DNA of 64,000 bases from Phreatobacter sp. (lineage in GTDB: Bacteria; Pseudomonadota; Alphaproteobacteria; Rhizobiales; Phreatobacteraceae): contig NZ_JAUYFA010000031.1 of NCBI RefSeq assembly GCF_030691135.1, positions 1-64,000 of the forward strand. Direction: 5' to 3'. The notes under the pieces are model-generated. The model was not told where the DNA came from. It made no database searches and was given only the letters and a program-made list of their open reading frames with translations. Each line of letters starts with the position of its first letter. Positions within the stretch are counted from its first letter, which is position 1. The translations under genes were made by a program, and so were the position numbers. Positions 2,673 through 40,404 of the stretch are shown in pieces.

Positions 2673-2680
2673 GGTGGTCC

Positions 2681-6313: not shown

Positions 6314-6875
6314 GCCGTCTTGCTCGCCCGTTCTGGCTCGTGGGTTGCCCGGAACGGGCTCGGAGCACCGTCAAATCACGGCCCACGCGCCGCGACAAGA
6401 CCACACCCTCGGGACGCCGCGCCGCAAAACCTCGCCGGATCTGTGTGGAATTCCTGCGTCATCGCCGCCATTGCCGTCGATCTTTGACGCAGTGCGTCGA
6501 TATCCACCGCGGTTTGGAAGGAAGTCGTCGCTTCGAGAGCCGACGGAAGGGCAAAGATGGCCGCCCGGAACATCGCGATCTGTCGCTCGCAATCTTTTTT
6601 TGCCCTTCAAACCAGGCTGACTGCCATCGAGACTGCACCAACTCAGTTTGCGTCACCCTCGAAAATCTCCTAAAGACCCGTCCGGCTGCCGGATGGTATG
6701 GCGGGGCCGGGCTTTCTGCGAGACGACAGGTCCCTCCGACCGGTCCGGATTGCCGCACCCGCGCAGCGGAAGCCGATGCACTGATGACAAGGCCGCCGAC
6801 ACCGATGCACCCGACGCCATCCCACCGCCCTGTTCGACCTGAGCCGGCAGGCGTCGGCGCCATGGGGTGCGTCCG

Positions 6876-7670
6876 ATGAGCACCTGGTTGCGCGTGGCGG
6901 CTGCCGACCTCGACGCTTCGATCGCGCGTCGCGACCTCTGGATCCACCAGGGCTTCATCGACGTCATCAGGCGTTACCGGCGCACGGCGCTGGGGCCGCT
7001 CTGGCACACGCTGCACCTCGGCGCACTGATCCTGCTGCTCGGCTTCGTCTGGTCGGCGATCTTCAGGATCGATACGGCGGCCTATTTTCAAACCATCACG
7101 CCGACGCTGATCGTCTGGACCCTGATCGCCTCGATCATCGTGGAGGGCTGCGGCACCTTCGTCGCGGCGCAGTCCACCGCGCTGTCGATCCGGTTTCCCT
7201 ACACCGCCTTCATCTTCGCCCATCTGTGGCGGATGTTGCTGATCTTCGCACACCATCTCGTGCTGCTGGTCATCGTCTATCTGGTGCTCGGTGTGACCCC
7301 GTCCCTGACCCTTCTCTTGGTCATACCGGGCCTGTCACTGATCCTCATCAACGGCTTCTGGATCAGCCTGCTGCTCAGCATCCTGACGCTGAAGGCCCGC
7401 GACGTTCAGCAGATCGTCGCCAGCGGCATGCAGATCGCCCTGTTCGCGACGCCGGTCTTCTGGCCGCGCGACCTCCTCGGGCCACGCTTCGCTTTCCTCA
7501 TCGACTACAACCCGCTCTACCACCTGCTTCTGATCGGCCGTGATCCCTTCATCGGGCGGGCACCTCCCATCGAGTCCTGGCTCTGGGCTGGCGGCATGGC
7601 CGCGGTCGGCCTGACCGTCTCCCTCCTTGTGTTCGGTGCCGTGCGGCGCCGGCTCGCCTACTGGTACTGA
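6876..7670 (+). CDS. polysaccharide ABC transporter permease (Wzm-like, ABC-2)
   Basis: DLWIHQGFIDVIRRYRRTALGPLWHTLHLGALILLLGFVWSAIF N-terminus with multiple hydrophobic TMs; followed by Wzt-like ATPase. Confidence 0.9.
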   Translation: MSTWLRVAAADLDASIARRDLWIHQGFIDVIRRYRRTALGPLWHTLHLGALILLLGFVWSAIFRIDTAAYFQTITPTLIVWTLIASIIVEGCGTFVAAQSTALSIRFPYTAFIFAHLWRMLLIFAHHLVLLVIVYLVLGVTPSLTLLLVIPGLSLILINGFWISLLLSILTLKARDVQQIVASGMQIALFATPVFWPRDLLGPRFAFLIDYNPLYHLLLIGRDPFIGRAPPIESWLWAGGMAAVGLTVSLLVFGAVRRRLAYWY

Positions 7671-7673
7671 CCC

Positions 7674-8771
7674 ATGCCCCGGATCCGATTGCGCGACGCC
7701 ACCGTCGCATTCCCGGTCAAGCTCGCACCGCAAACGGCGGCGGCAGGCATCGGCCAGACCGGCGGCCGGATCGACGCCGCCACCCGCCAGATTGTCGCGC
7801 TGGACGGCATCACGCTCGACATTCCCTCGGGCAGCCGGATCGGGCTGATCGGTCACAATGGCGCCGGCAAGTCGACTTTGCTCCGGGTCCTCGCCGGGGT
7901 CTACGAGCCGATCAGCGGCGAGGCGGAGATCGACGGCACCATCGCCACCCTCTTCAACGCCACGCCCGGCCTGAACGTCGACAGCACCGGACGTGAAAAC
8001 ATCATCACCTGCGGCCTTCATCTCGGCCTCAGCCTGAAGGAGGTCCGGGCGCGTGCCGCCGAGATCGCCGAATTCACCGAACTCGGCGGCTATCTCGACC
8101 TTCCCGTGCGGATCTACTCCGCCGGCATGCTGATGCGGCTCGGCTTCGCCATCGCCACCTCGCTGGAGCCGGACATTCTTCTCATCGACGAAGGCCTCGG
8201 CACCGGCGATGCCGGTTTCACCGTCAAGGCCGAGACGCGGATGCGCGAACTGGCGGAGCGCGCCTCGATCCTCGTCGTCGCCTCCCATTCGATGGCGCTG
8301 CTCAATACCCTCTGCACCACCGGGATCGTCCTCGAACACGGCAAGATCGTCGCCATGGGGCCGATCGAGACCGTCCTCAGCGACTACCGCGCCAAGGTGG
8401 CCGCCGATGCCAGCACCGGCGACAAGAATGCCCGCCGCGCCGCCTATACGATGGCCCAGGAACTGGCCAATACCGGCCAGGAACTGCCTCCCGAACTGGA
8501 ACTGCAGGCGCTGATCGAGGCCTTCACGATCCGCCCCGACGACCTCTCCATGCTGCGGCGCTACCGCTCGCTGCTGGTCATGCTCGGCAAGCCGGTCGAG
8601 CCGGCGCTCGACCTGAAGATCGAGCAGGCCACCCTGCGGCTCACGCCGGAGGACAGCGAGGTCATCATGCGCATCCTGGTCCTTGTGAAAGCCCATGGTC
8701 TCAGCATCGACGAGGACATTCAGGCGATCCTCACCAACCGCCTCAGGGAACTGACTGGGGCGGACCGCTGA
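7674..8771 (+). CDS. polysaccharide ABC transporter ATP-binding protein (Wzt-like)
   Basis: Walker A GHNGAGKST, YSAGMLMRLGFAIATSLEPDILLIDEGLGTGD (signature/Walker B); about 100-aa C-terminal extension. Confidence 0.92.
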   Translation: MPRIRLRDATVAFPVKLAPQTAAAGIGQTGGRIDAATRQIVALDGITLDIPSGSRIGLIGHNGAGKSTLLRVLAGVYEPISGEAEIDGTIATLFNATPGLNVDSTGRENIITCGLHLGLSLKEVRARAAEIAEFTELGGYLDLPVRIYSAGMLMRLGFAIATSLEPDILLIDEGLGTGDAGFTVKAETRMRELAERASILVVASHSMALLNTLCTTGIVLEHGKIVAMGPIETVLSDYRAKVAADASTGDKNARRAAYTMAQELANTGQELPPELELQALIEAFTIRPDDLSMLRRYRSLLVMLGKPVEPALDLKIEQATLRLTPEDSEVIMRILVLVKAHGLSIDEDIQAILTNRLRELTGADR

Positions 8772-11400: not shown

Positions 11401-11446
11401 GCACCGCGCAGCTTCGCCCCACCCCCGGCCCTTTCCAGGAGCCCCT

Positions 11447-12334
11447 ATGGCAATTCATTGGTCCGTCATTCACAGCATGGAAGCCCTCGGCATGTTTCCC
11501 GCCAAGGGTTCGGTGCTGGATATCGGTTGTTCCAACCTCTACGGCGCAGAGGCTCCGGCGATCCTCGATTTCGTCCAGCGCCACAATCCGGGGACCTCTC
11601 AGGATCTCGCTTGGGCGACCGCACTGGCCTCGCGGTCCGGTTTCCGACCTGACGGTATCGCGCTCAACCAGGCCTTCGTCGGCGAGCTTCTGGAAGCGGC
11701 CGGCATGACCTACGAGGCGGTCGACATCGCGTCGAGCTATCGCACGACCATCCTGGACCTCAACCGCAGCGAACTGCCGGAAGCCTTCGTCGGCAAGAAC
11801 GACCTCGTGATCAATGCCGGGACCACCGAGCACATCATCAACCAGGCCAATGCCTTCAACGCCATCCACGAGGCCACCAAGGTCGGCGGCCTGATGTACC
11901 ATCAGGTCCCGGCGGCCGGTTTCGCCGCGCATGGCTACTTCTGCTATACGGGCAAGTTCTTCCTCGATATGGCAGCCTACAACCACTACGAACTGGTCGA
12001 CTTCTGGTATGACGGCCCCGCGGGCCATGACAACCTAATCGACTCCGTTGAAGCCTATAAGGCGCATTTCCCGGTCCTCGGCCCCTACACGGCCAACCGC
12101 CAGGGCGTACGAGAGGCGCGCGTCAACGCGACGCCGGTTCCCAACATGGCCGTGAACGTGTTGTTCAGGCGTACCTCGGAGAAGCCCTTCGCCGGGCTGC
12201 TGGATGTCAGCACCAGTGTCGGAGCGGTCGGCCAGGACGTGTATCAATCCTACGGCAGGAGCCTGGGCGCCCGCATCATGTCGACGGTCAAGCGGGTCGC
12301 GACCCGCGACTGGCTGACGCGCAAGCTGAAATGA
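11447..12334 (+). CDS. class I SAM-dependent methyltransferase-like protein (paralog A)
   Basis: GSVLDIGCSNLYGAEAP, NAGTTEHIINQANAFNAIHEATKVGGLMYHQVP; homologous to 12379..13209. Confidence 0.8.
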   Translation: MAIHWSVIHSMEALGMFPAKGSVLDIGCSNLYGAEAPAILDFVQRHNPGTSQDLAWATALASRSGFRPDGIALNQAFVGELLEAAGMTYEAVDIASSYRTTILDLNRSELPEAFVGKNDLVINAGTTEHIINQANAFNAIHEATKVGGLMYHQVPAAGFAAHGYFCYTGKFFLDMAAYNHYELVDFWYDGPAGHDNLIDSVEAYKAHFPVLGPYTANRQGVREARVNATPVPNMAVNVLFRRTSEKPFAGLLDVSTSVGAVGQDVYQSYGRSLGARIMSTVKRVATRDWLTRKLK

Positions 12335-12378: not shown

Positions 12379-13209
12379 TCAGCCGTTGGCATAGGCGCCT
12401 TTGACGGCATCCGGAATCGCGCCGACGCTGGTCGAGGTCTCGACCATGATGCCGAACGGCTTGTCCTTCACCTTGCGCAGCACGACGTTGATGGCCACGG
12501 TCGGAATACGCAGGGACGCCACCCGCTTTTCACGATCCTCGACGCCGATGGCGGCAACGCGCTTGTCCACGTGGGGGAAGTACCGGGCATACGCACGCGT
12601 GGACGAATAGATGTCCTCGCTGTCGGTGTAGTTTCCGTCGAACCAGATATCCAGCAGCTCATACTCGTTATATGCGGCGAGATCATAGAAAAAGCGGCCG
12701 GTGTAGCAATAATAGGCGTGATCGACGAAACCGATGGCCGGCAACTGATGCATGATCATGCCGCCTGGCTTGCAGGCATCGTGGATCGACTTGAAGACGT
12801 TGGCCTGGTTCAGAATATGCTCGCTGGTGCCGAAGTTCAGCACCACATCGGCCGATTTGATGAACTGTTCCGGCAGCGCCTGAAAGTTCAGGTCGACGAT
12901 GGTGGTCTTGTAGCCGTCGGCAATGTCGATGGCGTCATAGGTCATGCCCGCGGCTTCGAACATTTCACCGATGAAGGCGTGGTTCAGGGCCTGCCCGTCC
13001 GGACCGAGCTTCGAACCTGCCTCCAGCCGCTGCGCGAGTTCAGATAGATTGTCCGGGATCGTGGTCGCATAGCGGGCGACGAAGGCCTCGATCTGGGCCG
13101 CGGTCGCATGATACAGGTTGGAACTGCCGAAATCGATGACATGGGCGCCCGGAGAAAGAAGCCGAGCGTTTTCAATCGCATCCAGCGAGTTCCAGCTGAT
13201 GGCCATCAT
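12379..13209 (-). CDS. class I SAM-dependent methyltransferase-like protein (paralog B)
   Basis: GAHVIDFGSSNLYHATA, NFGTSEHILNQANVFKSIHDACKPGGMIMHQLPAIGFVDHAYYCYTGRFFYDLAAYNEYELLDIWFDG. Confidence 0.8.
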   Translation of the reverse strand: MMAISWNSLDAIENARLLSPGAHVIDFGSSNLYHATAAQIEAFVARYATTIPDNLSELAQRLEAGSKLGPDGQALNHAFIGEMFEAAGMTYDAIDIADGYKTTIVDLNFQALPEQFIKSADVVLNFGTSEHILNQANVFKSIHDACKPGGMIMHQLPAIGFVDHAYYCYTGRFFYDLAAYNEYELLDIWFDGNYTDSEDIYSSTRAYARYFPHVDKRVAAIGVEDREKRVASLRIPTVAINVVLRKVKDKPFGIMVETSTSVGAIPDAVKGAYANG

Positions 13210-17115: not shown

Positions 17116-18054
17116 ATGAAAATACTTGTCACGGGCGCGTGCGGCTACAAGGGCAGCGTGCTGGTTCCGAAGCTTTTGAAGGCTGGCCATCAGGTCGTCG
17201 GCTTCGACATCCAGTGGTTCGGCAACGAGCTCGAGCCGCATCCGGACCTGAACGTGGTGCAGGGCGATGTGCGCAACATCGACGAGGTGCCGCTCGACGG
17301 CATCGACGCCATCATCCACCTCTCCTCCGTCGCCAACGACCCCTGCGGCGACCTCGATCCCAAGCTGACCTGGGAAATCTCCTGCCTCGCCACCATGCAG
17401 CTGGCCGACCGCGCCAAGCGCCGGGGCATCAAGCGCTTCATCTACGCCTCGTCCGGGTCGGTCTACGGCGTGAAGGACGAGGAGCAGGTCACCGAGGACC
17501 TCGAACTGCTGCCGATCTCGGAATACAACAAGACCAAGATGTGCGGCGAGCGCATCATGCTGTCCTATTCCGAGGACATGGTTGTGCAGATCGTCCGGCC
17601 CGCCACCGTCTGCGGCTTCTCGCCGCGCATGCGTCTCGACGTCTCGGTCAACATGCTGACCATGCAGGCGCTGAAGAACGGCAAGATCACGGTGTTCGGC
17701 GGCGATCAGACGCGCCCGAACATTCACATCGACGACATCACCGACCTTTACATCTTCCTGCTCGACAATCCGCAGCACACGGGCATCTACAATGCCGGCT
17801 TCGAGAATATCTCGATCCTCGCCATCGCCGAGATGGTCGGCCACCATCTGGACGCCGAGATCGTGGTGACGCCGTCTAACGATCCCCGCTCCTATCGGGT
17901 CAATTCCGACAGGCTGCTGGCCACCGGCTTCCGGCCGAAGAAGACGGTCGAGGACGCGATCAAGGAACTGATCGGCCTCTACCGCCAGGGCGTGCTGATC
18001 GAGCAGGATCGCTGGCATAACCTCAAGTGGATGCAGCAGAAGGCGGCGCAGTGA
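17116..18054 (+). CDS. NAD-dependent epimerase/dehydratase
   Basis: MKILVTGACGYKGSVLVPKLL, ASSGSVYGVKDEE, YNKTKMCGE. The ORF-track start at 16651 is an extension. Confidence 0.92.
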   Translation: MKILVTGACGYKGSVLVPKLLKAGHQVVGFDIQWFGNELEPHPDLNVVQGDVRNIDEVPLDGIDAIIHLSSVANDPCGDLDPKLTWEISCLATMQLADRAKRRGIKRFIYASSGSVYGVKDEEQVTEDLELLPISEYNKTKMCGERIMLSYSEDMVVQIVRPATVCGFSPRMRLDVSVNMLTMQALKNGKITVFGGDQTRPNIHIDDITDLYIFLLDNPQHTGIYNAGFENISILAIAEMVGHHLDAEIVVTPSNDPRSYRVNSDRLLATGFRPKKTVEDAIKELIGLYRQGVLIEQDRWHNLKWMQQKAAQ

Positions 18055-18056
18055 CC

Positions 18057-18665
18057 ATGACGGCCTTCGCGAATCCCGGCGATCATTTCCGCGATTACGC
18101 CTCGCGCCTGGCAAGCGTCCTCGGCGGCTTCGACTGGACGCCCGTCGAGGCTCTGGGGCACGACCTCAGGGCCGCATGGAGCAGCGGTGCGCAGGTGTTC
18201 TTCGCCGGCAACGGCGGCAGTGCCGGCAATGCGGTGCACCTCGCCAACGACTTCCTCTATGCGCTGTCGAAGCAGGCCGGTTCAGGCCTCCGGGTCCACG
18301 GCCTGCCGGCGAACCAGGCGGTGATCACCTCGCTCGCCAATGACGAAGGCTACGACAAGGTCTTCTCGCTGCAGCTGGCGGTGATGGCGCGCAAGGGCGA
18401 CATCCTCATCGTCTTCTCCGGTAGCGGCAATTCCCCGAACATCCTCAGGGCGCTCGAAGAGGCGAAGCGGATTGGCATGAAGAGCTATGCCGTGCTCGGT
18501 TTCTCCGGCGGCAAGGCCAAGGCCATGGCGGACGTCCCCATCCACCTCGCGCTCGATGACATGCAGATCGCGGAAGATTTCCAGCTGATCATGGGACACA
18601 TGCTGATGCAGTGGCTTTCCCAATACCGCGACGAAGTGGCGGCTGAACTGGCCGGGAGGTCCTGA
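18057..18665 (+). CDS. gmhA: SIS-domain sugar isomerase, GmhA-like (sedoheptulose-7-phosphate isomerase family)
   Basis: VFFAGNGGSAGNAVHLANDFLYAL, GDILIVFSGSGNSPNILRALEEAKRIGMKSYAVLGFSGG. Confidence 0.82.
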   Translation: MTAFANPGDHFRDYASRLASVLGGFDWTPVEALGHDLRAAWSSGAQVFFAGNGGSAGNAVHLANDFLYALSKQAGSGLRVHGLPANQAVITSLANDEGYDKVFSLQLAVMARKGDILIVFSGSGNSPNILRALEEAKRIGMKSYAVLGFSGGKAKAMADVPIHLALDDMQIAEDFQLIMGHMLMQWLSQYRDEVAAELAGRS

Positions 18666-18667
18666 GC

Positions 18668-19660
18668 GTGGCGGCACCCATTCTCGTCCTCGGCTCCAAC
18701 TCCTTCTCCGGCGCCAGCTTCTGCGATTTCGTGGCCGCGGCCGGCCGCGACGTCATCGCCACGTCCCGCTCCGACGAGCCGCACGAGGCCCTGCTGCCCT
18801 ACAAGTGGCGCAAGAACCCTGGCTCGGTACGTTTTCATCGGGTCGACATCAACCATGATCTCGACGCGCTCGACGCCCTTCTGAAGGCCGAGAAGCCGAC
18901 ACATATCGTCAATTTCGCTGCCCAGAGCATGGTCGGCGAGAGCTGGACCAATCCCGACCACTGGATGATGACCAACGTGGTCTCGACGGTGCGCCTGCAC
19001 GAGCGCCTGCGCCGCTACGACCGGCTGGAGCGCTACGTCCATGTCACGACGCCGGAAGTCTACGGTTCGACCGAGGGCTGGGTGAAGGAGGATTGCCCCT
19101 TCAATCCCTCGACGCCCTATGCGGTCAGCCGCGCCGCCGGCGACATGAGCCTGCGCACCTATTTCCAGACCTACCAGTTCCCGGTGCTCTTCACCCGCGC
19201 CGCCAATGTCTACGGGCCCGGCCAGCAGCTCTACCGCATCATTCCCCGCACCATCGTCGCCGCCGTGGGCGGGCAGAAGCTGAAGCTCGATGGCGGCGGC
19301 AAGTCGGTGCGCGTCTTCATCCACATGAACGACGTCTCCGACGCGACGCTGAAGATCGCCGAAAAGGGCACGCTGGGCGAGACCTATCACATCTCGGGCT
19401 ATGAGCTGGTCTCGATCCGCGAACTCGTCGAGATGATCCTTGCGCGCCTCGGCAAGCGCTTCGAGGATTGCGTCGAGATCGGGCCGGAGCGCCCGGGCAA
19501 GGACACCGCCTATACGCTCGACAGCGTCAAGATCCGGACCGAGCTCGGCTGGCGGGATTCGATCGGTCTCGACCAGGGCGTCGGCGACGTCATCGCCTGG
19601 GCCACGCGCTTCGGCGAGGCCGTCGGCCAGCTGCCCGCGCGCTATGAACACAAGGCCTGA
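18668..19660 (+). CDS. GDP-mannose 4,6-dehydratase-like SDR
   Basis: ILVLGSNSFSGASF, NFAAQSMVGESWTNPDHWMMTNVVST, TTPEVYGSTEGW, YAVSRAAGD. Confidence 0.9.
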   Translation: MAAPILVLGSNSFSGASFCDFVAAAGRDVIATSRSDEPHEALLPYKWRKNPGSVRFHRVDINHDLDALDALLKAEKPTHIVNFAAQSMVGESWTNPDHWMMTNVVSTVRLHERLRRYDRLERYVHVTTPEVYGSTEGWVKEDCPFNPSTPYAVSRAAGDMSLRTYFQTYQFPVLFTRAANVYGPGQQLYRIIPRTIVAAVGGQKLKLDGGGKSVRVFIHMNDVSDATLKIAEKGTLGETYHISGYELVSIRELVEMILARLGKRFEDCVEIGPERPGKDTAYTLDSVKIRTELGWRDSIGLDQGVGDVIAWATRFGEAVGQLPARYEHKA

Positions 19661-19667
19661 CGGCCGC

Positions 19668-20528
19668 ATGACTGGGACCCCCGACATGGTTGTTGCGAAC
19701 GGCAAGAACGCGCCCGACAAGGCGGCGCTGGCGGCAGTAGCCGCAAGGCTCCGCGGCAAGGTGATCGAGATGAGCTCGGCCGCCGGTGCCGCCCATCTCG
19801 CCTCCTGCCTCTCCTGCTGCGACGTTCTGGCGGCCGCCTACTGGCACGTGCTGTCGATCGATCCGAAGAAGCCGGACTGGGCGGATCGCGACCGCTTCAT
19901 TCTTTCCAAGGGCCATGCGGCTGCGGCGCTCTACGCGACGCTCGCCTTCAAGGGCTATTTCCCCGAGGCCGAACTGGCGACCTATTGCCAGGATGGTGGC
20001 CGCCTCGCCGAACATCCCCCGGCCAATCTCCTGCCTGGCGTCGAGGCCGCTACCGGCTCGCTCGGCCATGGCCTGCCCATCGGCGTCGGCATGGCGCTCG
20101 CGGCCCGCATCCACGGCCAGAGCCACCGTGTCTATGCGCTGCTCTCGGACGGCGAGAACAACGAGGGCTCGGTCTGGGAAGCGGCGATGTTCGCCGCCGG
20201 CCAGAAGCTCGAGAACATCTGCGTGATCGTCGACTACAACAAGTGGCAGGCGACGGCCCGTTCCAACGAGACGCTGATGCTCGCCCCGCTGCGCGACAAA
20301 TGGGCCGCCTTCGGCTGGGACGCGCGCGAGATCGACGGCCATGACGTCGAGGCGCTGGCAGCCGCCATGGCCGACCTGCCCAATGGTTCGGGAAAGCCGG
20401 TGGCGCTGATCGCCCACACGGTCAAGGGCAAGGGCGTGTCCTTCATGGAGGACGACAACAACTGGCACTACCGCGCGCCGACCGCCGAAGAGGTGGTCAA
20501 GGCGCACAAGGAGCTCGGCCTCGCATGA
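19668..20528 (+). CDS. transketolase, N-terminal subunit
   Basis: ILSKGHAAAALYATLA, GSLGHGLPIGVGMALAARI, LLSDGENNEGSVWEAAMFAAGQKLENICVIVDYNKWQATA (ThDP domain). Confidence 0.93.
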   Translation: MTGTPDMVVANGKNAPDKAALAAVAARLRGKVIEMSSAAGAAHLASCLSCCDVLAAAYWHVLSIDPKKPDWADRDRFILSKGHAAAALYATLAFKGYFPEAELATYCQDGGRLAEHPPANLLPGVEAATGSLGHGLPIGVGMALAARIHGQSHRVYALLSDGENNEGSVWEAAMFAAGQKLENICVIVDYNKWQATARSNETLMLAPLRDKWAAFGWDAREIDGHDVEALAAAMADLPNGSGKPVALIAHTVKGKGVSFMEDDNNWHYRAPTAEEVVKAHKELGLA

Positions 20529-21448
20529 GAAACGCATTCGCTGACGAACTGACGAAGCTCGGCGACGACGACGCGCGCGTGGTCATGCTCTCGGGCGATA
20601 TCGGCAACCGCCTGTTCGACAAGTTCAAGGACAAGCATCCGAGCCGGTTCCTGAACTGCGGCGTGGCCGAGCAGAACATGATGGGCGTGGCCGCCGGCAT
20701 GGCGATGTCGGGCCTGCGCCCCGTCGCCTACACGATCACACCTTTCGTGACGACGCGCTGCCTCGAGCAAATCCGTACCGATGCCTGCTACCACAACGTC
20801 CCGGTGACGGTGGTCTCCGTCGGCGCCGGCCTCGCCTATGCGGGCCTTGGTCCGACCCATCACGCCTGCGAGGACATTTCCTTCCTGCGCTCTATTCCGA
20901 ACATGTCGGTGATCTGCCCGGGCGACCCCTGGGAGGTGCGCGCCGCGCTGCGCGCCGTCATGAAGCAGGATGGCCCCTGCTACATCCGCATGGGCAAGAA
21001 GGGCGAGCCGAACATCCACAAGGCGATGCCGGCCGACTTCACCATCGGCAAGGCCATCACCATCGAGGACGGCAGCGACGTCTGCATCCTGTCCACCGGC
21101 AATATCCTTCCCGAGGCCGTCGAGGCCGGCCACATCCTCAAGAGCCACGGCATCTCGGCCCGCGTGGTCAGCTTCCACACCGTCAAGCCGCTCGATACGG
21201 CTTGCCTGGCGGAAGCCTTTGGCAAGTTCCGTCTGGTCGCCACCGTCGAGGAGCATTCGCTGATCGGCGGCCTCGGTTCGGCCGTGGCGGAATGGGTCGT
21301 CGACAACGAGGTCCATCCCAAGGCCTTCCTGCGCTTCGGCACGCCGGACATCTTCTACAAGCTCGCCGGCGAACAGGAATACGCGCGCGAGCAGCTGGGG
21401 CTGACCGGCCACCAGATCGCAGACCGCATCCTCAAGAAGCTCGCCTGA
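20525..21448 (+). CDS. transketolase, C-terminal subunit
   Basis: MLSGDIGNRLFDKFKDKHPSRFLNCGVAEQNMMGVAAGMAMSGLRPVAYTITPFVTTRCLEQIR; ATGA overlap with previous gene. Confidence 0.93.
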   Translation: MRNAFADELTKLGDDDARVVMLSGDIGNRLFDKFKDKHPSRFLNCGVAEQNMMGVAAGMAMSGLRPVAYTITPFVTTRCLEQIRTDACYHNVPVTVVSVGAGLAYAGLGPTHHACEDISFLRSIPNMSVICPGDPWEVRAALRAVMKQDGPCYIRMGKKGEPNIHKAMPADFTIGKAITIEDGSDVCILSTGNILPEAVEAGHILKSHGISARVVSFHTVKPLDTACLAEAFGKFRLVATVEEHSLIGGLGSAVAEWVVDNEVHPKAFLRFGTPDIFYKLAGEQEYAREQLGLTGHQIADRILKKLA

Positions 21449-21458
21449 GATCATCATC

Positions 21459-22499
21459 ATGAAGACCGAAGCCGCCATCCTCGTCGAGACCGGCAAGCCG
21501 CTGGAACTGGTCACCCTGTCGCTGCCGGCCATCAAGCCCGGTCAGGTGCTGGTGGAGATCGGCTTTTCCGGCGCCTGCGGCACCCAGGTCATGGAGTGGC
21601 GCGGCGACAAGGGCGAGGACAAGTGGCTGCCGCACTGCCTCGGCCATGAGGGCGTCGGAACGGTCCTCGAGGCCGGCTCCGCCGTCACCAAGGTCAAGGC
21701 GGGCGACAAGGTCGTGCTGTCCTGGATCAAGGGCACCGGCATCGAGGCCGGCGGCGCCGTTTACGAATGGGACGGCAAGAAGGTCAACGCCGGCGGCGTG
21801 ACCACCTTCCAGCGCCACGCCGTCGTCTCCGAAAACCGGCTGACGCTGCTGCAATCCGGCCTGCCACCCGAACTCGGCGTGCTGCTCGGCTGCGCCGCGC
21901 CGACCGGCATGGGCGCGATCTTCAATGTGCTCGACGTGCGCGCCGGGGATTCCGTCGCGATCTTCGGCACCGGCGGCATCGGCATCAATGCCGTGATGGC
22001 GGCCGCCTTTGCCGGCGCCACGCCGATCATCGGTATCGATCCGAGCCCGACCCGTCGTGCGCTGGCCAAGCTCTATGGCGCGACCCATGTCGTCGACCCC
22101 GGCGAAGGCGACGTTCTGGCTCAGATCAAGGCGATCGTGCCGCAGGGCGTCGATCGCGCGGTCGAAGCCTCCGGCCTGCCCATGGTCATGGACCAGGCGA
22201 TCAACGCAACCCGCCAGCAGGGCGGCCGCGCCGTGGTCATCGGCAATGCCCGCTATGGCGCCGAGCTCACCCTGAACCCCGGCGTCTTCAACCAGGGCAA
22301 GAGCCTGATGGGCACCTGGGGTGGCGACAGCGTGCCGGATCGCGACTATCCGCGCTACGGCAAGCTGCTGGCAGGCGGACGTTTCCCCGTGCGCGACCTG
22401 CTTTCGGCACCCTATTCGCTGGCCAAGGCCACCGACGCCCTGGCCGATCTCGCCGCCGGCAAGGTCGGCCGTCCGCTGATCGACATGAGCCTGGCCTGA
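21459..22499 (+). CDS. zinc-dependent alcohol dehydrogenase-type MDR protein
   Basis: GACGTQVMEWRG, LGHEGVGTVLEAGSAVTKVKAGDKVVLSW, VAIFGTGGIGINAVMAAAFAGA. Confidence 0.9.
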   Translation: MKTEAAILVETGKPLELVTLSLPAIKPGQVLVEIGFSGACGTQVMEWRGDKGEDKWLPHCLGHEGVGTVLEAGSAVTKVKAGDKVVLSWIKGTGIEAGGAVYEWDGKKVNAGGVTTFQRHAVVSENRLTLLQSGLPPELGVLLGCAAPTGMGAIFNVLDVRAGDSVAIFGTGGIGINAVMAAAFAGATPIIGIDPSPTRRALAKLYGATHVVDPGEGDVLAQIKAIVPQGVDRAVEASGLPMVMDQAINATRQQGGRAVVIGNARYGAELTLNPGVFNQGKSLMGTWGGDSVPDRDYPRYGKLLAGGRFPVRDLLSAPYSLAKATDALADLAAGKVGRPLIDMSLA

Positions 22500-22510
22500 C
22501 GGGCGGCAAG

Positions 22511-23116
22511 ATGCGCATCGGGATCGACTTCGACAACACCATCGCCTGCTATGACGGGGTGTTCCACCAGGCCGCGCTCGAAAAGGGCCTGATCCCTGCC
22601 GGTCTCGGATCCAGCAAGAACGCTGTTCGCGACCACCTCAATGGCTCCGGCCGCAAGGACGAGTTCACCGCGCTGCAGGGCTATGTCTATGGCGCGCGCA
22701 TGGACCTCGTCGCGCCCTATCCGGGCATCGTCGCCTTTGTCGACGCGGCGCGCGCGGCCGGGCACGATCTCTTCATCGTCAGCCACAAGACCAGAACCCC
22801 GATGATGGGGCCGGCCTATGACATGCATGAGGCGGCCCGCGGTTTCCTCGCGGCACAGGCGCTCTCGGGCCCTGCCCGCGTGCCCCATGAAAACATCTTC
22901 TTCGAACTGACCAAGGAGGCGAAGGTCGCCCGCGCCGGCACGCTTGGCTGCGACGTCTTCATCGACGACCTCCCCGAAATCCTCGCCATGCCGGGCTTCG
23001 CGCCGGCCACGCGGCTGGTCCTGTTCGATCCCGACGCCAACCCGCAATTCGCCTCCCTGCCGCATGAACGGCACGGTGACTGGACCGCGGTCCGCCACGC
23101 CATCCTGGGCGCGTGA
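22511..23116 (+). CDS. HAD-like hydrolase
   Basis: MRIGIDFDNTIACYDGVF (DxDxT), LFIVSHKT, CDVFIDDLPEIL. Confidence 0.8.
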   Translation: MRIGIDFDNTIACYDGVFHQAALEKGLIPAGLGSSKNAVRDHLNGSGRKDEFTALQGYVYGARMDLVAPYPGIVAFVDAARAAGHDLFIVSHKTRTPMMGPAYDMHEAARGFLAAQALSGPARVPHENIFFELTKEAKVARAGTLGCDVFIDDLPEILAMPGFAPATRLVLFDPDANPQFASLPHERHGDWTAVRHAILGA

Positions 23117-24148
23117 ATGGACGAGGTCCTGGCGATCGCGGCGCGTCTCTTTGGCAAGGCCGCGCTGGCGCCGCCCGTGTCGGCAGAGCGCCTCTCCGGC
23201 GGCAAGAACAACCGCGTCTTCCTGGTGAGCGATGCGGCAGGCGCCGCGCGCGTGCTCAAACTGTACCATGTCAGCGCCGCCGACAGCCGCGACCGGCTGG
23301 GCGCGGAATGGTGTTTCATCAGCTACGCCCGCGCGCGCGGCATCGACACCGTGCCGGAGCCGCTGGCCATGGACCGCGGCGATCATGCGGCCCTCTACAG
23401 CGTCCGCCCCGGGCACAAGCTGGCGCCGGGCGAGGTCGGCCATCTCCATGTCGAGGCGGCTCTCACCTTCATCATCGCGCTCAACAGCGCCCCGCGGGCC
23501 CTCGACGGGATCGCGCCCGGCTCGGAAGCCTGCTTCAGCCTCGCCGATCACCTGGCGACCGTCGCCCGCCGCGTCGCGCGCCTCGCCGACCTCGACCGCA
23601 CGGCGCCGCATGGCGAGGCAGCAGCGGCCTTTGTTGCGAATGAACTCGTGCCGGCCTGGGAGCGCGTCCGGCAGCGGATCGCCGCGGCGGCCGGCGCGGA
23701 GGGAGACGCCGCCCTCCCGCAGGAGGCGCGGATCGTCTCGCCCTCCGACTTCGGCTTCCACAACGCCCTCGTCGCCGATGGTGCCGTCTCCTTCATCGAC
23801 TTCGAATATGCCGGCCTCGACGACCCCGCCAAGCTCGTCGGTGATTTCTTCTCCGTCCCGGAGATCCCGACGCCGCAGGCGAGCCTCGAGCGTTTCATCG
23901 ATGGTCTCCAGGCCGGGCTGTCCCTCGGCGACGGCTTCGGTCGACGCGCCCGGCTGCTGCTTGATGCCTACCGGATCAAGTGGGCTTGCATCATCCTCAA
24001 CGACTTCCTGCCGCTCGACGAGGCGCGCCGCGCCTTCGCCCTCGGCACCGACCGCGCCGAGCGCTGCCGCGCCCAGCTCGCCAAGGCGCAGGCGATCCTC
24101 AAAGACCTGACCCCGTTCCACACCGGAGACCGCCATGGCCTATCGTGA
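23117..24148 (+). CDS. aminoglycoside/choline-kinase-like phosphotransferase
   Basis: LSGGKNNRVFLV, IVSPSDFGFHNALVADGAVSFIDFEYAGLDDPAKLVGDFF (APH Brenner-like motif). Confidence 0.85.
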   Translation: MDEVLAIAARLFGKAALAPPVSAERLSGGKNNRVFLVSDAAGAARVLKLYHVSAADSRDRLGAEWCFISYARARGIDTVPEPLAMDRGDHAALYSVRPGHKLAPGEVGHLHVEAALTFIIALNSAPRALDGIAPGSEACFSLADHLATVARRVARLADLDRTAPHGEAAAAFVANELVPAWERVRQRIAAAAGAEGDAALPQEARIVSPSDFGFHNALVADGAVSFIDFEYAGLDDPAKLVGDFFSVPEIPTPQASLERFIDGLQAGLSLGDGFGRRARLLLDAYRIKWACIILNDFLPLDEARRAFALGTDRAERCRAQLAKAQAILKDLTPFHTGDRHGLS

Positions 24149-24797
24149 ATTCGTCAGCCTCGTCCACAAGTCGACGAAGCGTGACTACCTCGCGCGCGTC
24201 AACGAGATCGACAAGGCGGAGGTTGCCGAGAAGGCGATCCAGTTCGGGCAGGACTACTGGGACGGCAGCCGCCTCACCGGCTATGGCGGCTACAAGTACG
24301 ATGGCCGCTGGCGCAAGGTCGCCGACGCCATGATCGCCGCCTACGGCCTGAAGCCCGGTATGAAGGTGCTCGATGTCGGTTCGGGCAAGGGCTTCCTGCT
24401 GCACGACTTCAAGGAGGCGATGCCCGGCCTCGAGGTCGCCGGCATCGACATCTCCCCCTATGCCGTCGAGCACACCATGGAGAGCGTCAAGCCCTTCTGC
24501 CAGGTCGGCAGCGCCGCCAAGGTCCCCTGGGCGGACAACAGCTTCGATCTCGTCATCTCCATCAACACCCTGCACAACCTCTACAATTTCGATCTCCATG
24601 CTGCCCTGAAGGAGATGGAGCGCGTCAGTCGCGGCGGCAAATACATCTGCGTCGAGGGCTACCGCAACGAGAGCGAGAAGGTGAACCTGATGTACTGGCA
24701 GCTCACCTGCCGCATCTTCCACACGCCGGAAGAATGGGCCTTCGACTTCGCCCAGGCCGGCTATACCGGCGACCACGAGTTCATCTATTTCGAATGA
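24135..24797 (+). CDS. class I SAM-dependent methyltransferase
   Basis: MKVLDVGSGKGFLLHDFKEAMPGLEVAGIDISPYAVEHT, VPWADNSFDLVISINTLHNL. Confidence 0.93.
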   Translation: MAYREFVSLVHKSTKRDYLARVNEIDKAEVAEKAIQFGQDYWDGSRLTGYGGYKYDGRWRKVADAMIAAYGLKPGMKVLDVGSGKGFLLHDFKEAMPGLEVAGIDISPYAVEHTMESVKPFCQVGSAAKVPWADNSFDLVISINTLHNLYNFDLHAALKEMERVSRGGKYICVEGYRNESEKVNLMYWQLTCRIFHTPEEWAFDFAQAGYTGDHEFIYFE

Positions 24798-25408
24798 TCC
24801 CGCTGCTCGCCAACGGCTGCTGGGCCGAGATCAGGGGCGCCAGGGGGGCCGAGGCCCGGCCCTGCCTTTTCCTTGATCGCGACGGGGTCGTGATCGTCGA
24901 CCGCCATCACCTGGCCGACCCTGCCGGCGTTGAACTGGTGCCCGGCGCCGCGGCCCTTGTCGCCGCGGCCAACCGCTCGGGCTGGCTGGTCGGACTGGTC
25001 ACCAACCAGTCCGGCATCGGCCGCGGGCTGTTCGACTGGCAGGCCTTCGCCCGGGTCCAGGCCCGCGTGGAAGCGGAGTTGCAGGCAGGCGGTGCGGCGC
25101 TCGACTTCATCTGCGCCTGTCCCCATCACGCCGGCGGATTGGCCCCCTTCGACGTGGCCGATCATCCCTGGCGCAAACCCAATCCCGGCATGCTCCTGCA
25201 CGCCGCGACCGCGCTCGGCGTCGCCCTTCCCGCCTCCATCATGGTCGGTGACCGCGCCAGCGACATGGGAGCGGGAGCAGGCGCCGGGGTCGGCCATTGC
25301 TTCCTGATCGAAGGCATGAGCGACGAGGCGGCGACGGCCCGGGCGGCGGGTCTCGCCTTCCGGCCGTGCGACGGGCTGGACGAGGTCGAAAAGCTGCTCG
25401 TGGCCTAG
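24794..25408 (+). CDS. gmhB: D-glycero-manno-heptose 1,7-bisphosphate 7-phosphatase-like HAD-IIIA phosphatase
   Basis: CLFLDRDGVVIVDRHHLADPAGVELVPGA, LVTNQSGIGRGLFDWQAF, ICACPHH, KPNPGML, MVGDRASDMGAG. Confidence 0.85.
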   Translation: MIPLLANGCWAEIRGARGAEARPCLFLDRDGVVIVDRHHLADPAGVELVPGAAALVAAANRSGWLVGLVTNQSGIGRGLFDWQAFARVQARVEAELQAGGAALDFICACPHHAGGLAPFDVADHPWRKPNPGMLLHAATALGVALPASIMVGDRASDMGAGAGAGVGHCFLIEGMSDEAATARAAGLAFRPCDGLDEVEKLLVA

Positions 25409-26103
25409 GGCGCGGGCGGCCGGGCAAGCAGCGGGAAGCCCAGCCTGAGCTGGCCACAAGCCTCACCTCCGCGCGCCGCGGCGTCAGGAACAGCGCGCAC
25501 TCCGAAAGCGGGATCGATCAACAGGCCGCGGTCGGCGGTGCGCAAGGCGAGGAGATCGGGTTCGGCGGAAAAGATGGCCGCCGCAAGATCGAGGGCCATG
25601 GCGCGCTGAACCGGGCCGGGCGTCGCGTCGGCCCCTAGCGTTGGCGTTTGCAGTTCGGCGATCATGTTGGCCGAGCCCCGCAGCGCGAAGGCGGGACAGC
25701 TTTCCCTGTGCACGGCCCCCGTGCCGACGCAGGCGAGCTTGCCGGCCAGAGCGCGTCCGAAACGCGCGGCCGCCTCCCGGTCCACCGTCGGCCGGGCACA
25801 GGACGGACCGCTGTTGCCTGCCACGAGGGTGCGCGCTGGAAGCACGACCGCGAGGCCAAGCCGGTCGACATCTGCCTCGAACCCGTTGCGCGACAGTTCG
25901 CGCGCGAGATCATCGAGGAAACGCATCGCTTCTGCGCGACGCGCCAACTCTTCCGCCTGCTCCGACCGGCTCTGCGCAGTGTCACCCTGCTGCTGGGCAA
26001 AGAACATCTGTGCGGCGATGAGGATCAGCAGGATGAAGATCACGCCGACGACAAGGTCGAAGAAGGGCTTGAAGTCGATGACGTCGTCGTCTTCGGCCTT
26101 CAT
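25405..26103 (-). CDS. MotB/ExbD/ZorB-like membrane protein with degenerate OmpA-like C-terminal region
   Basis: MKAEDDDVIDFKPFFDLVVGVIFILLILIAAQMFFAQQQ: single N-terminal TM with Asp after PFF; C-terminal ALDLAAAIFSAEPDLLALRTADRGLLIDPAFGVRAVP...GQLRLGFPLL resembles the end of ZorB/OmpA-type domains. Confidence 0.7.
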   Translation of the reverse strand: MKAEDDDVIDFKPFFDLVVGVIFILLILIAAQMFFAQQQGDTAQSRSEQAEELARRAEAMRFLDDLARELSRNGFEADVDRLGLAVVLPARTLVAGNSGPSCARPTVDREAAARFGRALAGKLACVGTGAVHRESCPAFALRGSANMIAELQTPTLGADATPGPVQRAMALDLAAAIFSAEPDLLALRTADRGLLIDPAFGVRAVPDAAARGGEACGQLRLGFPLLARPPAP

Positions 26104-27008
26104 GGCACGGCCCGCTCTGACAGCACGCTCTCGAGCTTCGCGACAGCGGCACGCGTCGCGGCCAGTTCGGTGGTGAGGCTCATCAGTGCAGCGGACAGCT
26201 GCGCAATCCGCTGCTCTTCCGCCCATTCGGAGCGCGCCGGTCTCAGCGGTTGGAGGAACGCGTCGATTTCCGTGGCGAGCTCCGCAGCGGCCGTGCCGAG
26301 CGATTGCGCGCCGTAGCGATGCAGGAGGCTGATCATCAGCGCGCTAAGCAAGGCGGCGACTGAGGTCAGGAACTTGAATGCCGACGCATTGAGCAACTGC
26401 ACGATGGCCTGGCGCGCCTCACCCATATCTCCCGATCGGAAACCGCGCGCCGAGAAGTACAATGCGACGACAAGGCCGACGAAGGTCAGTATCAGACCGA
26501 CAGACGTATAGTACCCAGGAAGCCCAACGAGGAGAGCCGTCTTCGCTTGCACCCCGACAGCACTCTGCGTCTCTACGACGGTAGCAAAACGGCGCTCGGG
26601 AATGCGCTTGCGTTCGACCACATCGGCGGCGAAGACAGTCCAGGCCGGCAGCAGTGCGTCATGCCGCTTGAGAACGCCATGGATGCGTTCGCAGGCCTTC
26701 AGCCAGTCGCCGGGGCCGGCTTTGCGCAGGGCCTCGATCTCGCGTCGGGCGCGGCGCATGCCGGTCAGTTGCGGAACGAGGACCCTGCTCGTGAACCAGC
26801 CGATGATCGACAAGGCCGAGAGGAAGACAAGGGCCGACGCGACATAGGCGAAGGATGGCTGGTTGATCAGGTTGACGAGCGGAACGACGACCGGACGCAG
26901 CAGTTGCGTCGCGAACTCGCCGATCGGGTCGAGAGCGCCTTGGGTCTGGCCCAAAGCGATGAGTGCCACCAGGAGCAGCACAAGCACAGTCGACAGGATG
27001 ATGGTCAT
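26100..27008 (-). CDS. MotA/TolQ/ExbB/ZorA-like proton channel protein
   Basis: TVVETQSAVGVQAKTALLVGLPGYYTSVGLILTFVGLVVALYFSARGF...AFKFLTSVAALLSALMISLLHRYGAQSLGTAAAELATEIDAFLQ; ATGA overlap with downstream partner. Confidence 0.75.
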   Translation of the reverse strand: MTIILSTVLVLLLVALIALGQTQGALDPIGEFATQLLRPVVVPLVNLINQPSFAYVASALVFLSALSIIGWFTSRVLVPQLTGMRRARREIEALRKAGPGDWLKACERIHGVLKRHDALLPAWTVFAADVVERKRIPERRFATVVETQSAVGVQAKTALLVGLPGYYTSVGLILTFVGLVVALYFSARGFRSGDMGEARQAIVQLLNASAFKFLTSVAALLSALMISLLHRYGAQSLGTAAAELATEIDAFLQPLRPARSEWAEEQRIAQLSAALMSLTTELAATRAAVAKLESVLSERAVP

Positions 27009-28024: not shown

Positions 28025-28738
28025 TCAGGCCGTGACCGGCTTCGGAAACTCGACATGCGCGCGCGCCAGACTGTCGAGATTGCCGATATCGCGATGATAA
28101 CCGGCGGTCTCATGGGCGAGGATTCGACCGACGAACCGAGGAATGACTTCAGTCGACAGGTCGACGAAGGGCTTGCCCAGTTGCGCCGCGGCCTCGGTCA
28201 CCTCCGGCTCGATGATATAGACGGCGGCGTTGGCGAGGTTGCCGGGCGGGTTCTCCACCTTCTCATGGAACGCCTGCACCAGATGCATGTCGTCCAGCTC
28301 GAGAATGCCGCAGGAGCGGGGATCGTCGGTGCGGAAGGCCAGCATGGTCATGGCCGCCCCGGGGGGGCGCCGCGCATGGGCCGACTGGAAGGCAGCGACG
28401 TCGAAGGTCGTCAGATTGTCGGCATGGGCCAGCAGGACGGGACCGGACCCCAGCGCGATGCGATTCGCCACCAGCGTGCCGCCCGTCCCCAGAAGCTCGG
28501 GTTCATGCACCAGCGTCACCCGGTCACGCCACGGTGACGCTGCCACATGGCGCTCGACCACGTCGGAGAGGTAATGCGTGTTGACGACCGCATGGCTGAT
28601 CGCATCGTCGCGAAAGATCAGGTCGAGCCAGTAATCCATCAGCGGACGGCCGTGGATCGGCACCAGGCATTTCGGCACGGTGTCGGTAAGCGGCCTCAGA
28701 CGGGTTCCGAACCCGGCCGCCAGCAGCAGCGCGCGCAT
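28025..28738 (-). CDS. sugar-phosphate nucleotidyltransferase (HddC/mannose-1-P guanylyltransferase-like)
   Basis: MRALLLAAGFGTRLRPLTDTVPKCLVPIHGRPLMDYWLD. Confidence 0.9.
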   Translation of the reverse strand: MRALLLAAGFGTRLRPLTDTVPKCLVPIHGRPLMDYWLDLIFRDDAISHAVVNTHYLSDVVERHVAASPWRDRVTLVHEPELLGTGGTLVANRIALGSGPVLLAHADNLTTFDVAAFQSAHARRPPGAAMTMLAFRTDDPRSCGILELDDMHLVQAFHEKVENPPGNLANAAVYIIEPEVTEAAAQLGKPFVDLSTEVIPRFVGRILAHETAGYHRDIGNLDSLARAHVEFPKPVTA

Positions 28739-28740
28739 GT

Positions 28741-30255
28741 TCAGGTCCTCCGCTCGCGCAGTTCACCCATCACTTCCTGATGCTGGATGGGCAGATTGCC
28801 GACCCGCGACACCTGGATGGCGGCCGCGATCGATCCGAGATAGCTCGAACGCCAGATGTCGACTCCGGCGCACAGCGCCATCGACATGCAGGTGAAGAGG
28901 GAATCGCCCGCGCCGGCCACGTCCTTGGGGTTGTTGTTGAATGCCGGGAGCCGGTCGAGCCGCTCCTCGCCCTGTTTTTCGCCGAGCACGATCATGCCTT
29001 CGGCGCCGAGCGTCACCACCACATTGACGGCGCGGGCCTTGTCCCGGAGCCGGGAGGCCACGACGGCGATGCCGGCTTCGGCATCCTGCACATGAAGGGC
29101 GAGCCTGGCCTCGCGCTCGGTCGGCGTGACCAACTGCATCCCCCGGAAACGGGAAATGTCAGCCATCTGGGACGAGGCCTGGCTGTCCGCCGACATCGGC
29201 ACCTTGCGGGCCTGCGCGGCCTCGGCCACCGCATCGACCAGCGGCTGCGGCAGGCAGCCATAGTTGAAGTCGGAGAACAGGATCAGGTCCGTATGCTTGA
29301 TGCGGGATTTGATCCAGCGCAGCATTTTCGACTGCAGTTCCTGCTCCACCGCATGCTGGCGCAGGTCATTGACCCGCAGCAGGGTCTTGCCGTTGGCCCG
29401 GTAGCGGGCCTTGACAGTCGTCGGACGCGTCCGATCCACCATGACGCTGGCGTTGACGTTGTAGCGCGCCAGATTTTCGCGGGCATAGGCCGCATGCCGG
29501 TCGTGCCCCGCGACGGTCAGGAACTCGACCTCTGCCCCGAGGCCGCGTGCATGGGCCGAAACAATCCCGGCGCCGCCGACGAAGGTCTTCTTGTTGATCG
29601 GCGTCACCACGATGGTGGGGTCTTCCTGCGACATGCCCAGGGGCTCGCAGTTGACGTATTCGTCGATGATCAGATCGCCGATCACCAGGACACGCATTCC
29701 GGCAAACTGCGGCAGGATTTTCGCCAGATCGCCGATCCGGAAACCATGGCGCTCCGGGAAGTCGGTCGGCCGCTGGATGTTGGGCCGGTCATTGCCGGCG
29801 AACTCCTTGGCGATCAGGTCGTCCGTGGAGAAGCGCAGCTCGCCGGCGCTGAACAGCAGCTTGCCGCCATAGCCATCAAGGACCGCTTCTTCGGGATTGT
29901 ACTCCGTCGCGAACTCCTTGCCCTTCACCACCAGGTCGGGCCGGAGCCGGTCGATGAAGCGGCTCGCATCCTCGCGCATCTCGACGGCGTGGTGGACATA
30001 GGAGATCGCGTTCAGGGCCTCGAGCCTGAGAGCCATCGGCACGGTCACACCCTGGGCGCCGTCGGGCTTCAGGCCGATCACCAGCGTGTCGCAGGCCTCG
30101 GCAGCGAATTTGAGCACGCGCATGTGGCCGGCATGGATGACGTTGAAATTGCCGGAGATGAAACCGATGCGCTTGTGCGGGCCGACCTGCTGGCGGATCT
30201 GCTCGGGCGTGAGCGCGGGATCGCTGGCCGAGTCGAGGTTACGCAAATGGGCCAT
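28741..30255 (-). CDS. bifunctional cytidylyltransferase-type nucleotidyltransferase + PfkB carbohydrate kinase (HldE-like, reversed domain order)
   Basis: N-terminal IGFISGNFNVIHAGHMRVLKFA (GxFxxxHxGH-type), C-terminal VLVIGDLIIDEYV...VGGAGIVSAHARGLGA...DVAGAGDSLFTCMSMAL (PfkB/RfaE1). Confidence 0.88.
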   Translation of the reverse strand: MAHLRNLDSASDPALTPEQIRQQVGPHKRIGFISGNFNVIHAGHMRVLKFAAEACDTLVIGLKPDGAQGVTVPMALRLEALNAISYVHHAVEMREDASRFIDRLRPDLVVKGKEFATEYNPEEAVLDGYGGKLLFSAGELRFSTDDLIAKEFAGNDRPNIQRPTDFPERHGFRIGDLAKILPQFAGMRVLVIGDLIIDEYVNCEPLGMSQEDPTIVVTPINKKTFVGGAGIVSAHARGLGAEVEFLTVAGHDRHAAYARENLARYNVNASVMVDRTRPTTVKARYRANGKTLLRVNDLRQHAVEQELQSKMLRWIKSRIKHTDLILFSDFNYGCLPQPLVDAVAEAAQARKVPMSADSQASSQMADISRFRGMQLVTPTEREARLALHVQDAEAGIAVVASRLRDKARAVNVVVTLGAEGMIVLGEKQGEERLDRLPAFNNNPKDVAGAGDSLFTCMSMALCAGVDIWRSSYLGSIAAAIQVSRVGNLPIQHQEVMGELRERRT

Positions 30256-39179: not shown

Positions 39180-39189
39180 GGTGTCCTCC

Positions 39190-40395: not shown

Positions 40396-40404
40396 GCACT
40401 CCCT

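Follow-up and report, generated by a model that had tools for sequence, protein, structure and literature searches.

Bradyrhizose is a two-ring, ten-carbon sugar that reportedly does not trigger plant immunity. In the photosynthetic Bradyrhizobium ORS285, insertion into the gene termed gdh abolishes the bradyrhizose O-antigen, and the authors of that work noted that the mutation may be polar; they called the genes for bradyrhizose unknown and merely proposed an 11-gene cluster (Busset et al., 2016; PMC4743980). Given the possible polarity, the connection to the sugar, which rests on this one mutant, belongs to the cluster and not to a single enzyme. The papers found describe neither a worked-out pathway for bradyrhizose biosynthesis nor a transketolase mutant or in vitro assay; literature searches directed at an O-antigen transketolase pathway and a fuller bradyrhizose structure returned nothing decisive.

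The lincosamide octose pathway, which employs the LmbR transaldolase, LmbN isomerase, LmbK phosphatase and LmbO guanylyltransferase, resembles the locus described here in that a pentose-phosphate-type C-C bond enzyme is followed by an SIS isomerase and NDP activation to give a higher-carbon sugar, but differs in using a transaldolase in place of a split transketolase and in yielding a Streptomyces secondary metabolite instead of an O-antigen (PMC4351081). GDP-heptose modification in Campylobacter jejuni likewise involves an SIS isomerase, kinase, phosphatase and nucleotidyltransferase, followed by C4 oxidation of the NDP-sugar by an SDR; unlike the present operon, these pathways are without a transketolase/methyltransferase core, use the GHMP kinase HddA where a domain-swapped HldE-like protein is found here, and produce heptoses (PMC10680097). 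The split-gene transketolases of the miharamycin and amipurimycin clusters and, separately, the YerE-type branching enzymes depend on ThDP, and a part in making branched sugars has been demonstrated or suggested for them; YerE is of the decarboxylase type, unlike the transketolase pair TktN/TktC described below. The 13 candidate ketone-accepting transketolases of a review are all from Streptomyces and uncharacterised, and the present family does not figure in the parts of that review drawn on here (PMC12247030).

The window analysed here, a 64,000-nucleotide stretch of Phreatobacter sp. DNA, contains ten open reading frames (g1 to g10) on the forward strand at 17116-25408. A first-pass annotation had described ten overlapping or closely packed genes, and ORF calls and measured distances bore this out; all ten were found as described, with successive distances of 2, 2, 7, -4, 10, 11, 0, -14 and -4 bp (neighbours are separated by 0-11 bp or overlap by 4-14 bp). 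Scans for promoters revealed no promoter-like site, and terminators were not in excess.

Comparison with Bradyrhizobium BTAi1 revealed all eleven genes of its block, at 56-85% protein identity, with nine contiguous and in the same order and two displaced. Identity was 79-85% for g1, g3, TktN, TktC, the MDR dehydrogenase and the methyltransferase (g1, 85%; TktC, 79%; methyltransferase g9, 84%). The displaced pair, both on the reverse strand, consists of an NTP transferase (sugar-1-phosphate nucleotidyltransferase; 28025..28738; PF00483, 1.2e-26; 66%) and an HldE-like bifunctional protein (28741..30255; 56%). Primers published for gdh map to g3 (18668..19660) at 18785 and 19142, with the expected spacing and 5 and 1 mismatches, respectively, so that the orthologue of g3 is the gene disrupted in ORS285. 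The operon is thus an orthologue of the 11-gene cluster in photosynthetic Bradyrhizobium and shares its synteny, the collinear genes being equal in number to those of the published cluster, as the suggested check against Bradyrhizobium-type loci had anticipated. Unlike that cluster, the Phreatobacter locus has the HldE-like/NTP transferase pair inverted and displaced 2.6 kb downstream, and a GmhB-like gene (g10) appended. The NTP transferase gene adjoins g1 in BTAi1 and in a same-genus genome (G008), in which all 11 genes are contiguous, and the HldE-like gene opens the block in BTAi1 (L024) and in one further locus (L098).

Synteny was counted in 50 loci, each with a TktC relative and its full surroundings, and the nine-gene core was complete in 38 of these. 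TktN was present in all 50, g1, g3 and the HAD and APH-like genes in 49 each, the methyltransferase in 47, the MDR gene in 46, the SIS gene in 40, and g10 in only 8; such synteny is far beyond chance. The functional boundary differs from that of the ten-gene operon, with g10 outside the core and the HldE-like and NTP transferase genes inside the set. Eight core genes diverge in concert over 31 loci (Spearman 0.5-0.86), and the set recurs across many lineages, unrelated bacteria included. The SIS gene is missing from the more distant loci, which leaves the order of the biosynthetic steps uncertain. A plasmid-borne cluster was discarded, as a search of PLSDB for TktC relatives at E 1e-70 gave none.

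With a probability of about 0.68, we consider that the operon and the HldE-like/NTP transferase genes (28025-30255) together encode the synthesis of a higher-carbon O-antigen sugar in activated form, either bradyrhizose itself or a sugar very close to it, with the transketolase supplying a two-carbon unit. The earlier proposal of an unusual (higher-carbon or branched) sugar pathway gains support from the BTAi1 synteny, with its 56-85% identities, and from the published gdh mutant; gene content, orthology, the residue changes given below and, from the literature, the absence of bradyrhizose once the g3 orthologue is disrupted are established, and each single reaction is what we infer from them. 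It is possible, although unlikely, that the product is some other branched or higher-carbon sugar, with the shared core providing a precursor that is finished as bradyrhizose only in photosynthetic Bradyrhizobium; the core is spread over many lineages, in which its neighbours vary (C-methyltransferases, RmlD-like reductases, acyltransferases), and the window carries the additional GmhB-like gene and the displaced HldE-like/NTP transferase pair. Against this stand the presence of every gene of the Bradyrhizobium block, the high identity of six of them, and the contiguity of all 11 in the same-genus genome.

TktN (g4, 19668..20528; PF00456, 3.3e-39), the ThDP-binding half of a split transketolase, matched the split transketolase 6yak at 4.6e-66, and TktC (g5, 20525..21448; PF02779, 1.8e-39; PF02780, 7e-24) is the pyrimidine-binding/C-terminal half. 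An alternative start for TktN lies at 19647. When relatives of the two halves were aligned (E. coli numbering), the ThDP-binding residues D155, E160 and N185 of the DG...E...N motif were kept in 76/76 and the catalytic glutamate E411 in 85/85, as were the donor-site histidines H66 (75/75), H261 (76/76) and H473 (85/85); H100 was kept in 67 of 75 TktN relatives. The acceptor contacts of TktC were replaced: H461 by glycine in 85/85, D469 by leucine in 81/85 and S385 by arginine or lysine in 82/85, all three being intact in E. coli TktA and in the genome's own full-length transketolase. By sequence, TktN/TktC is therefore a transketolase as regards its fold and its donor chemistry, but its acceptor site departs from the standard one. 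The pair forms a distinct clade, whose nearest tree neighbours in a 16-row set are from Bradyrhizobium STM 3843, BTAi1 and STM 3809. Residue conservation and operon content together point to C2 transfer by the pair. The first-pass annotation would have given way had this been the sole housekeeping transketolase, a role that is ruled out by the full-length enzyme (52% identity to E. coli TktA) and by another split pair in the same genome.

Should TktN/TktC act like DXP synthase or YerE, moving acetyl from pyruvate and not hydroxyacetyl from a ketose, a methyl-bearing branch would result. TktC scores almost evenly with the NCBIfam models (DXS, 189 bits; transketolase, 190 bits), TktN carries a DXS-like HLxSxLS motif, and YerE is known to transfer acetyl onto sugar ketones (PMC12247030). 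TktN, however, scores 287 bits as transketolase versus 39 as DXS and keeps the transketolase histidines H66, H100 and H261, which makes acetyl transfer improbable; YerE-type enzymes are single-chain members of the ThDP decarboxylase superfamily, whereas the operon encodes two-chain transketolase domains.

The first-pass family calls agreed with Pfam and NCBIfam searches, save that the second SDR, g3, lies nearer RmlB (TIGR01181, 212 bits) than GMD (58 bits). The 212 bits fall below the cut-off of 365 for an RmlB-type 4,6-dehydratase; the catalytic motif TDE of RmlB is TPE in 67/67 relatives, with proline replacing aspartic acid, and YxxxR replaces YxxxK in 57/68. The other SDR, g1 (17116..18054; PF01370, 1.4e-38), is of the extended NAD-dependent epimerase/dehydrogenase type, retains the Ser-Tyr-Lys catalytic residues in 66/66 aligned relatives and has 6vo6 as its best solved relative (5e-32); both SDRs score under curated equivalog cut-offs. 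The SIS-domain isomerase g2 (18057..18665; PF13580, 3e-17) is GmhA-like, scoring 106 bits against a TIGR00441 cut-off of 209, and in 42/42 relatives E65 and Q172 of the GmhA active site are changed to D and E, respectively, with H61 and H180 kept. A zinc-type MDR alcohol dehydrogenase is encoded by g6 (21459..22499; PF00107, 1.4e-24; PF08240, 5e-14), and a SAM methyltransferase by the core gene g9 (24135..24797; PF13847, 3.9e-17). Pfam and NCBIfam searches gave no match for g7 (22511..23116), which bears a DFDNT motif; its AlphaFold model (mean pLDDT 97.4) matched HAD phosphatases, a fold to which the prediction assigns it. The predicted fold of g8 (23117..24148; pLDDT 93; PF01636, 2.6e-12) matched choline kinase/APH, as in a small-molecule kinase, and its motifs SDFGFHN and DFEY are invariant among relatives; for g7 and g8 alike, structure matches are at the superfamily level only. 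The accessory g10 (24794..25408) is a HAD-IIIA phosphatase (TIGR01656, 115 bits; cut-off 84) that reaches 123 bits against a GmhB equivalog cut-off of 178. The SIS and GmhB-like proteins, previously labelled "heptose-type enzymes", thus score as neither GmhA nor GmhB. In the HldE-like protein, PF01467 (cytidylyltransferase) precedes PF00294 (PfkB kinase) within one chain, the reverse of the kinase-first order of HldE. That TktN/TktC merely feeds sedoheptulose 7-phosphate or other pentose-phosphate intermediates into an ordinary heptose-containing O-antigen is compatible with the kept donor residues and with the adjoining GmhA-like, HldE-like and GmhB-like genes, but is very unlikely given the complete housekeeping transketolase, the loss of H461 and D469, the unreached GmhA and GmhB cut-offs and the position of the GmhB-like gene outside the core.

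For a bradyrhizose-type sugar, the dedicated TktN/TktC would move hydroxyacetyl, a two-carbon unit, from a ketose onto a non-standard carbonyl acceptor, which may be bulky and without a terminal phosphate or the usual alpha-CHOH. The two added carbons would end up as C1-C2 in the finished sugar, an assignment that leans partly on the bradyrhizose structure as we presume it to be. The isomerase g2 could then convert the 1-hydroxy-2-ketone product to an aldose, with C1 activated by the HldE-like kinase/nucleotidyltransferase and the NTP transferase; g8 and the HAD phosphatases would handle phosphates. Oxidations and reductions may fall to the MDR enzyme and the two SDRs, one of these three probably closing the carbocycle by an aldol step, and g9 probably gives an extra one-carbon branch.

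In BTAi1, a search for canonical carbocycle-forming enzymes gave no candidate: inositol-phosphate synthase had no match there, and dehydroquinate synthase, presumably AroB, was single-copy in each of 5 genomes, BTAi1 included, so a cyclase of the latter type was rejected. Phreatobacter sp., unlike BTAi1, has an inositol-phosphate synthase, but the enzyme was seen in just 3 of the 15 genomes carrying the cluster, and was dismissed as a general rule. Since BTAi1 lacks the one and has a single copy of the other, ring closure is probably the work of an unrecognised enzyme. Tentatively, the natural acceptor of hydroxyacetyl on TktN/TktC may be a ketone that carries no phosphate, or a carbonyl compound with a ring; one of the operon's SDRs may be a sugar carbocyclase that has escaped recognition, and ten-carbon sugars of the bradyrhizose type may be present in surface glycans across many bacterial lineages beyond photosynthetic Bradyrhizobium.

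The comparison establishes which genes belong to the set, which of them form the conserved core and how widely they are spread, and the unusual transketolase suggests a first hypothesis, open to testing, for the assembly of the carbon skeleton. The comparison also draws attention to a subfamily of transketolases whose acceptor residues are replaced; ketone-accepting transketolases are proposed but unproven (PMC12247030). Bradyrhizose or a close relative is predicted in syntenic organisms more amenable to analysis, for example Herbaspirillum huttiense.

A protein family from the BTAi1 flank (f22) was set aside as a source of shared polymer-assembly genes, having no match in Phreatobacter sp. 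in a search without a positive control; the polymer may be assembled differently there. Upstream on the forward strand lie a Wzm-type ABC-2 permease (6867-7670; PF01061, 1.1e-11) and a Wzt-type ABC ATPase (7674-8771; PF00005, 1.2e-19), a pair (6867..8771) that is probably the O-antigen exporter; in the locus comparison, a Wzm/Wzt-type pair adjoins the cluster in many loci.

The first-pass annotation had placed ten same-strand genes at 17116-25408 (+), and these stood at the positions claimed, with intergenic distances of 2, 2, 7, -4, 10, 11, 0, -14 and -4 bp. Pfam and NCBIfam likewise agreed with the SDR (g1), SIS (g2), split transketolase (g4, TktN; g5, TktC), MDR (g6) and SAM methyltransferase (g9) classes; g3 was assigned as an RmlB-like SDR and g10 as a HAD-IIIA phosphatase. 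The N half of the transketolase matched PF00456 and the C half PF02779 and PF02780, and the solved structures nearest to TktN and TktC were the two subunits of the split transketolase from Carboxydothermus (6yak/6yaj). The g8 product is a kinase of the APH/choline-kinase fold, and the g7 HAD was assigned by predicted fold only.

A scan of approximately 85,000 species genomes found 452 TktC relatives, the best 80 of which were retained; the top-ranking relatives among these best 80 of 452 were mostly from Bradyrhizobium, including BTAi1, STM 3809, STM 3843 and B. aeschynomenes, which belong to the photosynthetic bradyrhizobia. The synteny with Bradyrhizobium that had been suggested as a comparison extended over eleven collinear genes in the BTAi1 locus (L024, 4076 to 14317), where an HldE-like gene and an NTP transferase are followed by orthologues of g1 to g9. 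Identities between window and BTAi1 were 85% for g1, 71% for g2, 82% for g3, 81% for TktN, 79% for TktC, 81% for MDR, 67% for HAD, 57% for APH, 84% for the methyltransferase, 66% for the NTP transferase and 56% for the HldE-like protein.

Transposon mutants of ORS285 have been described in 'gdh', a member of an eleven-gene cluster that is perfectly syntenic in six photosynthetic strains; LPS of the gdh mutant lacked O-antigen and any bradyrhizose peaks, and the cluster was proposed to make this sugar, with polarity of the mutation not excluded (Busset et al. 2016, PMC4743980). The word transketolase is absent from that paper. The published gdh primers both match within g3 orthologues and are spaced there as expected; BTAi1 has 2 and 1 mismatches to them, and the window (positions 18785 and 19142) has 5 and 1. 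The g3 gene is therefore the gdh orthologue. The window locus is a further example of this published cluster type, to which we add its identification across taxa, a corrected gene set, a transketolase subfamily with residue replacements, and constraints on ring formation. For this organism, a bradyrhizose-type product, the single enzymatic steps and the direction in which the C2 unit is transferred are predictions from the genes.

With regard to gene content, g1 to g9 of the ten-gene extent stood as the core; the first-pass annotation had missed the HldE-like gene (28741-30255) and the NTP transferase (28025-28738), which belong to the set. This pair comes first in the BTAi1 block and in that of another genome from the window's genus (G008, locus L098), all eleven genes being contiguous there; in the window the pair is inverted, and three unrelated genes lie between it and the operon. 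Among 50 loci with full context around a TktC relative, TktN, g1, g3, MDR, HAD, APH and the methyltransferase were each present in 46-50 and SIS in 40, the nine core genes were all present in 38, and all eleven in 20. The GmhB-like g10, found in 8/50, is an accessory gene. Over 31 loci, divergence was correlated between core genes (Spearman 0.5 to 0.86). The interval between the operon and the displaced pair holds a ZorB-like and a ZorA-like gene side by side (MotB/MotA-like; 25405-27008, -; PADLOC 2.6e-6 and 1.7e-23); in the third gene there, no further Zorya component was seen.

Besides a full-length transketolase (52% identical to E. coli TktA) and DXS, the window genome encodes another split transketolase on a different contig (G000:C63:9816-11757; 39% and 34% identical to the TktN/TktC pair), which rules out TktN/TktC as the housekeeping enzyme; this other pair has the usual His at H461 (E. 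coli numbering) and Tyr at D469. In a quick tree with some long branches, the cluster transketolases formed their own clade, separate from housekeeping enzymes, and that of the window fell within a fully supported alphaproteobacterial set. An identical transketolase sequence occurs in a relative of the same order labelled Hyphomicrobiaceae, so that the window organism probably belongs to Hyphomicrobiales.

The cluster family retains the ThDP-binding and catalytic residues D155, E160, N185 and E411, the donor-site histidines H26, H66, H261 and H473 (and H100 in 67/75), and R358 and R520. Replaced are H461 by Gly (85/85), D469 by Leu (81/85) and S385 by Arg or Lys (82/85); in transketolase, S385 and H461 touch the substrate phosphate and D469 the acceptor alpha-hydroxyl. 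Because donor and ThDP residues are kept and these three replaced, the enzyme should still accept hydroxyacetyl from ketoses and would be expected to pass it to an atypical acceptor. A 2025 review (PMC12247030) lists ketone-accepting transketolases as unproven proposals, all of them from Streptomyces, which makes this family a good test case.

In g3, the RmlB general acid Asp is Pro in 67/67 and the catalytic Lys mostly Arg; in g2, GmhA E65 is Asp and Q172 is Glu in 42/42. Judged by their residues, g2, g3 and the cluster transketolase are recruited rather than standard sugar enzymes. The closest solved structure to g1 was 6vo6, presumably the C. jejuni GDP-heptose C4 dehydrogenase Cj1427.

Bradyrhizose is a ten-carbon sugar with an inositol-fused ring, in which closure of the C1 aldehyde is possible on O4, O5 or O9 (PMC9912281); C4 is therefore flanked in the carbocycle by C5 and C9. 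A transketolase product HOCH2-CO-C(OH)R could be converted by a ketose-aldose isomerase to OHC-CHOH-C(OH)R, which would correspond exactly to C1-C2-C3 of bradyrhizose with C10 as a methyl group on C3. This methyl group could derive from the methyltransferase, and the carbocycle could form by internal aldol, aided by an SDR or the MDR. Canonical ring-forming enzymes are not general among cluster-bearing producers, since inositol-1-phosphate synthase occurs in 3/15 cluster-bearing genomes and DHQ synthase is single-copy in each of five. The synthase had no match in BTAi1 or in 11 further genomes with the cluster, whereas the window genome carries one (G000:C42:86755-87081), and inositol may for that reason be the starting ring in this organism.

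Cluster loci among the matches listed came from Pseudomonadota (alpha, beta and gamma), Nitrospinota, Nitrospirota, Omnitrophota, Elusimicrobiota, Verrucomicrobiota, cyanobacteria and others, many of them metagenome bins whose taxon labels can be wrong; within Bradyrhizobium the TktC gene is sporadic (5/120 genomes). Remoter loci lack SIS and carry a more divergent HldE-like protein. A second cluster type (L044, L046, L049, L050, L066, L070 and other loci), without SIS and with a divergent HldE-like family (f15), keeps the TktN-TktC-HAD-APH-MT core and often adjoins sugar C-methyltransferases.

Elsewhere in the window, the 708-aa product of 1467-3593 (-) contains sugar C-methyltransferase domains (Methyltransf_13/14) and has relatives adjoining the cluster in STM 3843 (L023) and dw_411 (L026). 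Two similar methyltransferase-like proteins are encoded by genes facing each other (11375-12334, +; 12379-13209, -), and several loci have homologues of them close to the cluster. Two ketoacyl synthase genes lie at 37905-43552 together with genes for a FabA-like dehydratase and a lipid A acyltransferase, a set resembling the Hyphomicrobiales cluster for very-long-chain acylation of lipid A.
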